Positions 1 to 39,199 of a stretch of 44,796 bases of DNA are shown piece after piece; position 1 is the first letter of the stretch, and every line of letters starts with the position of its first letter. Below the pieces are notes generated by a model. It saw only the letters and a program-made list of their open reading frames with translations. It was not told where the DNA came from and did no database searches. Source of the stretch: Woeseiaceae bacterium (GTDB lineage: Bacteria > Pseudomonadota > Gammaproteobacteria > Steroidobacterales > Woeseiaceae); the NCBI GenBank assembly GCA_030066735.1, contig JASJBB010000017.1:1-44796 (forward strand), read 5' to 3'. The position numbers and the translations under genes were made by a program.

Positions 1-249
1 GGAAGCGGTGTTGATGCGATCTCCGGAAGCGGTGTTGATGCGATCTCTGGCAGTGGCGTGGACGCGATCTCCGGAAGCGGCGTAGACGCAATCTCCGGAA
101 GCGGTGTCGATGCGATCTCTGGCAGTGGCGTAGACGCAATATCTGGCAGTGGCGTAGACGCAATATCTGGCAGTGGCGTTGACGCAATCTCCGGAAGCGG
201 TGTTGATGCGATTTCTGGCAGTGGCGTTGACGCTATCTCTGGCAGTGGC
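1..249 (+). repeat. Coding 24-bp tandem repeat, ten full copies plus a partial copy
   Basis: Ten 24-bp units encode GSGVDAIS, followed by a final GSG at 241-249. All differences are synonymous. Two linked codon types are seen: TCC-GGA-AGC and TCT-GGC-AGT at every unit junction, usually with GGT-GTN-GAT and GGC-GTN-GAC downstream. The unit at 73-96 is a hybrid of the two. The array runs off the left edge, so the total copy number is not known. Confidence 0.97.
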
Positions 250-675
250 GCACCAATGCTCGCCGGGCCGATCGATTCCGTGAACCTGACCGAAGGCACG
301 TTTATGGCGGTTGGGCAGACGATCTCGTTTGCTGTTGACGGAATCGCTGCCATGCAAGTGGGCGACTACGTAACAGTGTATGGCGAACTGGCCGGTGCAG
401 GGCAAGTTGATGCCACGGCCGTGGATGTTTCGTCTTCAATGTATGTGCCTGGTGTGTCGGAAGTCTTCGTGACAGGTATACCGTCATCGATTGACTACAC
501 TCTCGGAACGGTGCAGATCGGCCAGCTTGAGGTCGACTACACACCGTCTCTGGGCGGGAACACATTTGGTGGCGTGGGAGCCGCCGTAACAGTCATTGGT
601 ACACAGCCGGCGCTCGGCGGTACCATGCTCGGTGACCAGGTCATCGACAGGACTGCATTATTCCTGCGGGACTAG
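1..675 (+). CDS. C-terminal part of an octapeptide-repeat protein with a DUF5666-like end
   Basis: The reading frame is open from the first base of the window, so the true start lies upstream and this is a 3' fragment of 224 residues. The first ~83 residues are tandem copies of Gly-Ser-Gly-Val-Asp-Ala-Ile-Ser with no amino acid change. After them comes a beta-rich, acidic region of about 140 residues with two related halves (for example VGDYVTVYGEL and IGQLEVDYTPSLGG), which resembles DUF5666-type beta-barrel repeats. No cysteine and no membrane segment are visible in the part seen. The composition suggests an exported or surface protein, but the signal peptide would lie outside the window. 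The function is unknown. A strong terminator follows 62 bp after the stop. Confidence 0.85.
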   Translation, partial: GSGVDAISGSGVDAISGSGVDAISGSGVDAISGSGVDAISGSGVDAISGSGVDAISGSGVDAISGSGVDAISGSGVDAISGSGAPMLAGPIDSVNLTEGTFMAVGQTISFAVDGIAAMQVGDYVTVYGELAGAGQVDATAVDVSSSMYVPGVSEVFVTGIPSSIDYTLGTVQIGQLEVDYTPSLGGNTFGGVGAAVTVIGTQPALGGTMLGDQVIDRTALFLRD

Positions 676-768: not shown

Positions 769-773
769 GGAAT

Positions 774-799
774 AAAAAAGTCGGCGTCCCTGCCGACTT
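774..799 (-). terminator. Terminator of the predicted sRNA
   Basis: On the minus strand AAGTCGGC (799-792), loop AGGGAC, GCCGACTT (785-778) is followed directly by a T-run. On the plus strand the hairpin has no T-run after it, so the terminator faces left. It cannot serve the parvulin gene alone, because that gene already has its own terminator at 939-961. Confidence 0.8.
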
Positions 800-870
800 A
801 GTTCTCGTATCCACCAAAAGGGAGATGCGAGGGTTGGAGAGACCACCCCCGAGCGATTAGGGGCGACCTC
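774..870 (-). ncRNA. Predicted CRP-activated small RNA (~97 nt)
   Basis: No protein gene lies between 676 and 993, yet the minus strand carries a complete small transcription unit. The predicted RNA runs from about 870 to the U-tract at 779-774. It can fold into three hairpins. Hairpin 1 pairs 870-860 with 849-839 (11 bp including three G-U pairs, 10-nt loop). Hairpin 2 pairs 831-824 with 811-804 (8 positions, one C-A mismatch), with a C-rich, U-rich loop. Hairpin 3 is the terminator 799-778. The single-stranded linker UCCAACC and the loop UCCCUUUU could pair with Shine-Dalgarno sequences, as in many trans-acting sRNAs. I do not recognise a known family. The promoter and fold are read from the sequence; the sRNA function is inference. 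Confidence 0.6.
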
Positions 871-877
871 GAGAGGA

Positions 878-920
878 ATACTAGGATCGTCGCTCAGTGA
901 GCGGTGTGATTCGATTCACA
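878..920 (-). promoter_or_regulatory. CRP-type site and class II promoter for the sRNA
   Basis: The palindrome TGTGATTCGATTCACA at 905-920 matches the CRP consensus TGTGA-N6-TCACA exactly. On the minus strand a -10-like TAGTAT lies at 883-878, which sets +1 near 871-870. The centre of the palindrome (912.5) then falls at about -41.5, the classical class II activator position. No good -35 box is seen, as is usual for class II promoters. On the plus strand no -10 hexamer occurs at the matching distance. Confidence 0.65.
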
Positions 921-938
921 AATCTTTGCGTTCCGTAC

Positions 939-961
939 AAAAAGGGCGCCCGAAGGCGCCC
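939..961 (-). terminator. Terminator of the ppiC-bolA-yciB transcript
   Basis: On the minus strand GGGCGCC-TTCG-GGCGCCC is followed by TTTTTGT, 33 bp after the parvulin stop codon. The UUCG tetraloop and T-run make it a strong intrinsic terminator. Confidence 0.92.
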
Positions 962-993: not shown

Positions 994-1800
994 TCAGTTA
1001 TTACTGTTGTATTCGGTGCGCAAAGTTTCGAGATAGGCCGTGAACTTGGTTTGCTCAACGCGCTGCTTCAGCGCGTCACGGACACTTTCCAAAGTCGGCG
1101 GCTGGTTATCGCGCGATTCTTCGCGCAGGATGACGTGCCAACCAAACTGGGTTTGAACCGGTGCGGTCGTGAAAGCGCCATCGTCGAGCACTTTTACGGC
1201 CTCCGAAAAAGGCCCTACCATCTGATCCGGTGAGAACCACCCGAGGTCACCGCCATTGGGTCCTGTCGGACCCGTTGAGTGCTCTTTGGCCAACTCGGCA
1301 AAGTCTGCGCCTTCCTCCAATTGTTTGATCAGGTCGGTAGCAGCCGCCTGCGTCGTCACCAGGATATGGCGGGCCTTGTACTGCTGCGCCGGCGCACTGG
1401 ACATCTGCTCCTCGTAGGCTGCGAGAATCTCCTCTTCGGACGCCGGGTTGGTTGCAAAATAGTCCGCAGCAACTGCCTGTGCCAGCACGGCACGGCCCTG
1501 CAATTCGATCTGCGCCTTGATGCGCACATCTTCGGCCAGTTTTTCGGCTGCCGGCTGGGTTGTGAGCAAGTAGATGTCGGTCAGTTCCTGCACCACAACG
1601 GCACGCTCTTCGTCCGTTGCCTGGTCTGCCGGCCGCTGGATACGGCTTTCCAGGTACATGTCCACGACGCTGCTATCCACATCGACGCCGTTCACCGTAA
1701 AAGCGGTCTCGGCGGTTGCAGCCGAGGCGCCGCCGAAGATTGCTGCCGCTGCAAGTGCCACGCTGGCGCCTGCTCGAGCGGAGCGGATATCAATATTCAT
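994..1800 (-). CDS. Periplasmic parvulin-type peptidyl-prolyl isomerase
   Basis: The protein (268 aa) is a PpiC/parvulin foldase expected to act on proteins in the periplasm. Residues ~1-31 form an Ala-rich signal peptide ending near SAATAETA. The middle (~35-125) is a helical SurA/PrsA-like chaperone region. The rotamase domain starts at QYKARHILV and includes GGDLGWFSPDQMVGPF and TQFGWHVI, the conserved parvulin core. I start at the ATG at 1800 because AGAGGA lies 8 nt upstream; a TTG six bases earlier would sit too close to it. It is the last gene of a leftward bolA-containing operon, 29 bp after bolA, with a terminator just downstream. Confidence 0.9.
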   Translation of the reverse strand: MNIDIRSARAGASVALAAAAIFGGASAATAETAFTVNGVDVDSSVVDMYLESRIQRPADQATDEERAVVVQELTDIYLLTTQPAAEKLAEDVRIKAQIELQGRAVLAQAVAADYFATNPASEEEILAAYEEQMSSAPAQQYKARHILVTTQAAATDLIKQLEEGADFAELAKEHSTGPTGPNGGDLGWFSPDQMVGPFSEAVKVLDDGAFTTAPVQTQFGWHVILREESRDNQPPTLESVRDALKQRVEQTKFTAYLETLRTEYNSNN

Positions 1801-1829
1801 TTGCAAGGTCCTCTTGACGAAAGGTCGGT

Positions 1830-39122: not shown

Positions 39123-39199
39123 CGGGGCGTAGCGCAGCCTGGTAGCGCACCACAATGGGGTTGTGGGGGTCGGGAGTTCGAATCTCCCCGCCCCGACCA
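39123..39199 (+). tRNA. tRNA-Pro (anticodon GGG)
   Basis: A 77-nt cloverleaf: acceptor CGGGGCG with CGCCCCG, D arm TAGCGCAGCCTGGTAGCGCA, anticodon GGG at 39157-39159 in the loop ATGGGGT between CCACA and TGTGG, T arm CGGGAGTTCGAATCTCCCG, discriminator A and encoded CCA. Confidence 0.98.

Follow-up and report, generated by a model that had tools for sequence, protein, structure and literature searches.

The enterobacterial small RNA CyaR has C/U-rich unpaired parts, and McaS is controlled by CRP. As described in PMC4098024, CyaR is activated by cAMP-CRP, binds Hfq and has targets that include ompX, luxS and nadE; Spot 42 is listed there as CRP-controlled as well. In E. coli, McaS and Spot 42 are base-pairing small RNAs that also contact CsrA, which, according to the account in PMC10729762, can alter their effects on targets. 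A related principle is described for GsrN, in which a conserved C-rich unpaired motif pairs with G-rich sites in mRNAs; this RNA belongs with sigma-EcfG regulation, and its BLAST homologs are given as limited to Caulobacteraceae (PMC5869019).

The locus described here lies in a stretch of 44,796 nucleotides from a MAG of a Woeseiaceae bacterium, an organism of sediments; the whole stretch was analysed and is called the window. A sequence-only reading had proposed a CRP-activated small RNA in a gap between convergent genes near its start and had not recognised the RNA family. At the locus, no family of Rfam 15 scores as high as its gathering threshold, in line with that reading. Low-scoring Rfam matches (23 at E<=10 for the locus, 9 at E<=1 in the loci of 12 relatives) were taken as chance. 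CyaR has no gathering-score match in the window and is absent from the E<=10 list for positions 740-970; its gene neighbourhood and the order of its hairpins differ too. Neither McaS nor Spot 42 has an Rfam match at the locus, and the 4 GGA copies reported for McaS (PMC10729762) contrast with a single ANGGAN on an intrinsic terminator here. The likeness to GsrN and other C-rich-loop small RNAs, compared by description only, lies in the C-rich unpaired motif (PMC5869019). The suhB/mmgR family (RF00519) shows a weak, sub-threshold likeness to three copies from family f9 of the same order, with at most 29.5 bits against a gathering score of 41; near the window locus, its single match has 11.5 bits, lies on the plus strand and falls outside the RNA. 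No report of the RNA was found in the literature searched for small RNAs of Woeseia/Woeseiales. We rate it as a probable CRP-activated small RNA family with a conserved CsrA-type terminator loop, which would work like CyaR or McaS and has no match at gathering score among the Rfam 15 families.

Promoter, fold and gene neighbourhood

The following features, all on the minus strand, make up the locus.

994-1806, minus strand: gene of a ppiC-type peptidyl-prolyl isomerase, the syntenic neighbour
944-961, minus strand: ppiC terminator, from a terminator scan, separating the ppiC operon from the small RNA unit
905-920, minus strand: CRP (cAMP receptor protein) site TGTGA-N6-TCACA, read in the sequence, centre at about -41.5; half-sites in 78/78 readable loci
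878-883, minus strand: -10 element TAGTAT, spaced 21 nt from the CRP site; a -10 starting with TA exactly 21 nt past the site in 75/78 loci
774-870, minus strand: predicted small RNA of about 97 nt, its start placed from the -10 element and possibly at 871
839-870, minus strand: hairpin 1, arms 870-859 and 850-839, loop 858-851; double-sided change in 10/11 model pairs
821-839, minus strand: CUCCAACCCUCGCAUCUCC, linker and 5' arm of hairpin 2, conserved; candidate target-pairing region
804-831, minus strand: hairpin 2, imperfect; double-sided change in 5/9 pairs across families
778-799, minus strand: intrinsic terminator hairpin with U tail 777-774, from the terminator scan; double-sided change in 8/8 pairs
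786-791, minus strand: terminator loop AGGGAC, an ANGGAN hexaloop and candidate CsrA/RsmA site; 75/75 loops read

CRP class II promoters have their site at -41.5, and activation needs a fixed spacing to the -10 element. Positions 905-920, read directly, form the perfect palindrome TGTGA-TTCGAT-TCACA; with its centre at 912.5 and a start at 871, the CRP site comes to lie at -41.5. The palindrome, the TAGTAT element and the placement near -41.5 thus read as the sequence-only reading had given them. The exact palindrome has one copy in the window, and with at most one mismatch 2 matches are found against 0.79 expected, so that the site by itself is mildly unusual at most.

A G(T/A)GA-N6-TCAC pair stands 5' of the RNA in 78 of the 79 loci tried, which span five families; the single unreadable promoter is that of locus L094, where the contig ends. 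The half-site reads GTGA in 77 loci and GAGA in one (L104). Under a stricter reading, half-sites are counted in 77 loci and the TA of the -10 element at 21 nt in 74. The spacer between the two elements drifts, with less than 60% identity at 18 of its 21 positions (77 loci). As the promoter pattern requires the half-sites, its percentages are conditional; the independent fact is that a promoter match stood upstream of the RNA in every readable locus. This architecture, a CRP site and a -10 element at a fixed distance, is established by comparative sequence. We infer that the unit is transcribed and that CRP acts as its activator.

The 21-nt spacing kept in 75/78 loci fits the need of class II activation, no sigma-70 type hexamer pair was found by a promoter scan of 600-1100, and the RNA and CRP are absent together. 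These points argue against CRP as a repressor that would, for example, block the -35 region as with Spot 42. Such a role is distinctly unlikely, even though the site overlaps the -35 region and the reported link between CRP and Spot 42 is one of repression (PMC4098024).

Folding of 870-774 gives a 12-bp 5' hairpin, an imperfect second hairpin and an 8-bp terminator stem followed by a U tail; the 5' hairpin, the second hairpin with its mismatch and the T-run terminator noted earlier were all recovered in this way. The fold energy of the 97 nt is -42.3 kcal/mol (z -3.5), a stability reached by 1 of 200 shuffles. Standard pairs fill 99.5% of the pair cells of the genus alignment, and double-sided change is seen at 7 pairs, all of them in hairpin 1 (46 double-sided cells against 13.4 in shuffles). 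Across five families, double-sided change extends to 23 of the 28 pairs and all three helices covary (alignment A6, 42 rows, A4 and A5 being excluded for spurious rows). The cells with such change number 137, where shuffles give 27.7 and sliding the partner gives 10 to 19; these counts lean towards the model because A6 is a fitted alignment. The compensatory changes that the sequence-only reading had suggested looking for in relatives are therefore found both within the genus and in five families, and the RNA and its structure are demonstrated by comparative sequence.

The loops of the RNA vary in length by single bases, and no common small ORF is present: an ORF of at least 8 aa occurs in 6 of the 30 RNAs examined (30 of the 47 genus RNAs). 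CRP-like motifs do arise by chance at an appreciable rate. Nevertheless, a chance set of motifs or a short conserved protein-coding gene is contradicted by the covariation in all three helices and by the lack of a common ORF, and we give either explanation hardly any credence.

Only 2 of the 19 positions of the CUCCAACCCUCGCAUCUCC core vary, in a few of the 47 genus copies. Two C/U-rich single-stranded parts had originally been proposed to pair with ribosome binding sites. The first of them, UCCAACC, is kept in the 47 aligned genus copies, whereas the UUUU end of UCCCUUUU falls in a loop stretch that is variable in length and sequence. The loop of hairpin 1, AUCGCUC (851-858, minus strand), is kept in the aligned genus copies and in four of five f9 copies, while its stem covaries; in the f9 locus L102, it reads UUCGCUC. 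This loop may be a second pairing site.

The order on the minus strand is ppiC (1806-994), its terminator (961-944), the palindrome (920-905), TAGTAT (883-878) and the 97-nt stretch, and the convergent plus-strand gene ends at 675. In 71 of the 78 readable loci, the gene immediately upstream is ppiC, on the same strand and 49-218 nt from the palindrome. The other 7 loci, all from families f8 or f9, have bolA upstream, and no PpiC match was found in their fetched flank. Given its own promoter and terminator, and its persistence beside bolA in these 7 loci, the small RNA unit is independent; the earlier claim of a separate unit past the ppiC terminator at 961-944 holds. Its position behind ppiC on the same strand in 71/78 loci would be expected if the element belonged to the ppiC operon, as part of a 3' UTR or as an attenuator, and were no independent small RNA. 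This is very improbable, as ppiC has a terminator of its own, the RNA follows bolA in seven loci and its own promoter is conserved.

The product of the neighbouring gene at 1-675 (plus strand) is a protein of tandem GSGVDAIS-type repeats, for which Pfam gave no match. Similar repeat proteins are found after a DUF6502 gene near the small RNA in the f5/f16 loci examined (L180, 1300-1887, minus strand; L182, 4645-5319, plus strand). Several relatives' contigs stop shortly past the small RNA, and the repeats are perhaps the cause.

Distribution and co-occurrence with CRP

By BLAST with 155 nt, the unit was found in 52 of 73 genomes of the genus at E <= 1e-10. In the RNA searches, which over more than 40 whole genomes ran with stricter filters that weak copies may escape, covariance model R1, built from 47 genus copies, matched 69 of 107 Woeseiaceae genomes, once each, in 9 of 12 genera. 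One further genome (G073), found by model R3, brings the family (f1) to 70/107, with one copy per genome. Carriers include many Woeseiaceae MAGs, for example Woeseia sp. SZUA-117 and UBA1847. On a draw from the order, R1 matched 79/396 genomes in 13/72 genera and added families f5, f9 and f16. R3 was built solely from five f5/f16 copies; it matched 76/396 genomes of the order draw and, among the 69 f1 copies, recovered 62 in identical positions. Beyond those 62, it found G073 (genus g2 of f1), two f8 copies, ten in f5/f9/f16 and one match in G217 (L216), dropped as it has neither a CRP site nor the core. Besides Woeseiaceae, four other families of the order thus have the RNA (f5, f8, f9 and f16).

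A class-wide search with model R2 matched 5/369 genomes, two of which are family members. The other three (L176-L178) match mainly through a terminator and were dropped, as the 80 nt inspected upstream of them hold no CRP site; no credible member outside the order was found in this class draw. The RNA model matched 67 of 68 stretches found by DNA pattern; L146, from a Bathyarchaeota record, was not matched.

The genome of the window encodes a CRP ortholog (NF008732, 319.6 bits, cut-off 266), which was found again by whole-genome search and whose residues 19-219 align with catabolite gene activator chains of solved structure. The CRP/Vfr homologue on which the sequence-only reading depended is therefore at hand, and with the palindrome conserved and the hairpins conserved through compensatory changes, its candidate has gained in strength. 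CRP is found in 93 of the 107 Woeseiaceae genomes, in 86 of these above the curated cut-off. The RNA is present in 70 of the 93 CRP-positive genomes and in none of the 14 without detected CRP (Fisher p 5e-8, genomes treated as independent). Nine of the 14 belong to genus g10, three are small genomes from the genus of the window and two are incomplete, which leaves fewer independent co-loss events. Comparative sequence thus bears out the co-occurrence of the RNA with CRP.

The small Woeseiaceae genomes of 1.1-2.0 Mb (G014, G041 and G062, and G084-G092 of g10) have no detected CRP, and in g10 no Hfq was detected either (9/9). Hfq is found in 88 of the 107 Woeseiaceae genomes and in 42/45 good ones; it was not found in the window's own 3.3-Mb, 85%-complete assembly.

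Among the 37 RNA-less genomes, 25 were examined for PpiC. Six of these lack CRP, and five of the six keep ppiC (G014, G041, G062, G088 and G092) but show neither an RNA core nor a CRP site within 450 nt past the gene. Since G014, G041 and G062 retain Hfq, loss of the RNA tracks CRP, not Hfq. No PpiC match at E <= 1e-30 was obtained in 19 of the 25, of which 18 are CRP-positive, so some genomes with CRP are without the locus; in G021, also CRP-positive, ppiC is cut by the contig end. Altogether, the RNA was not detected in 23 of the 93 genomes with CRP, which means that it is dispensable or was missed. Four genomes that are 98-100% complete (G012, G031, G040 and G043) have CRP, as a fragment in G031, and neither the small RNA nor PpiC at E <= 1e-30; a joint loss of the block is possible.

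The terminator loop and proposed target pairing

A high-affinity CsrA/RsmE site is described as an ANGGAX hexaloop placed directly on a stem (PMC4005645; PMC7652899), and the terminator of the small RNA carries such a loop, a feature that the sequence-only reading had overlooked. Read with a pattern that leaves the six loop bases free and requires the stem, which succeeded in 75 of 78 loci tried, the loop is ANGGAN in 75/75: AGGGAC in 48, AAGGAC in 12, AAGGAT in 8, ACGGAA in 4 and with ATGGA in 3. On a quick locus tree, all 18 inferred changes fall at the two N positions (0, 13, 0, 0, 0 and 5 per position). The loops left unread are those of L094 (AAGGAC by eye), of L215 from genus g2, where GGA is missing from the loop, and of L095, whose 3' end is different; L096, cut by the contig, was left out. 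The terminator of the adjacent ppiC served as a control: in the 46 of these 75 loci where it was read, 33 distinct loop sequences occur, and GGA is absent from all of them. Within the window, there are 8 terminator-like six-base loops, and the sole ANGGAN among them is the small RNA's own at 791-786. The conservation of ANGGAN is documented by comparative sequence, and CsrA would be predicted to bind there. The stem of this terminator is long and GC-rich, unlike the CsrA SELEX ligands, which mostly have short stems (PMC7652899), and this counts against CsrA binding. No tblastn match to CsrA was found within the DNA stretches analysed.

Further GGA motifs number 0 in 35 RNAs, 1 in 37 and 2 in 3 (n=75), and those inspected by eye lie in helix arms. 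There is usually one exposed GGA per RNA, not the many exposed GGA hairpins of a CsrB/RsmZ-type sponge. The RNA could still be mainly a CRP-switched antagonist of CsrA (Csr-type), its terminator loop titrating CsrA and its C/U-rich parts serving for folding only. The conserved ANGGAN loop, with changes at N positions only, is what such a role would leave. It is nonetheless unlikely: the usual single exposed GGA compares with 22 in CsrB and 4 in McaS, as counted in PMC10729762, and the C/U-rich region (with CUCCAACC), which has no GGA, is strongly conserved too.

Targets were sought by screening 8 genomes for the complement of the 19-nt core (wobble-aware, <=3 mismatches). The 60 places found, against 71 for the reversed control, show no enrichment; 8 of them fall on the small RNA gene itself, and a single near-identical sequence accounts for 7. 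In the window, this sequence lies in tRNA-Pro(GGG), at 39157-39175 (plus strand), with 3 mismatches to the core complement; near-identical matches recur in 7/8 genomes, including the window's, and the match is taken as tRNA conservation. When 44 ORFs of the window, together with the crp genes of four genomes, were screened for duplexes, nothing convincing came up; this screen had no accessibility term, and the start codons were uncertain. We infer that the RNA would use Hfq and pair with mRNAs.

Proposed mode of action

The best explanation, to which we give a probability of roughly three in four, is a CRP-activated (class II), trans-acting small RNA of about 97 nt that probably acts by Hfq-dependent base-pairing and whose terminator would also be bound by CsrA. 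At high cAMP, cAMP-CRP at -41.5 would recruit RNA polymerase, and transcription would yield an RNA of three stem-loops. The C/U-rich stretch between and within hairpins 1 and 2 (CUCCAACCCUCGCAUCUCC) would pair with G-rich ribosome-binding regions of several mRNAs, perhaps joined by the conserved loop of hairpin 1. This pairing, probably with Hfq, would lower translation of the targets. The terminator hairpin would offer one ANGGAN hexaloop to CsrA and so couple the RNA to the carbon-storage network; CsrA bound there may tune the stability or the pairing of the RNA, as for McaS and Spot 42 in E. coli.

A wider proposal, for and against which we see even odds, is that in at least five families the RNA joins two global carbon regulators, being made by CRP and read by CsrA via the terminator hexaloop, with a pairing activity or stability that depends on free CsrA. 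In the same proposal, the terminator would also serve as a high-affinity CsrA hexaloop, and a single hairpin would be shared by transcription termination and CsrA docking.

Gene regulation in Woeseiaceae is, to our knowledge, little studied. Through the RNA, CRP would have a conserved post-transcriptional arm in this family, which is represented here by many environmental MAGs; in small genomes, absence of the RNA goes with absence of CRP. The terminator hairpin seems to be under selection for protein binding in addition to termination, which would be a simple way to plug a small RNA into the Csr network.
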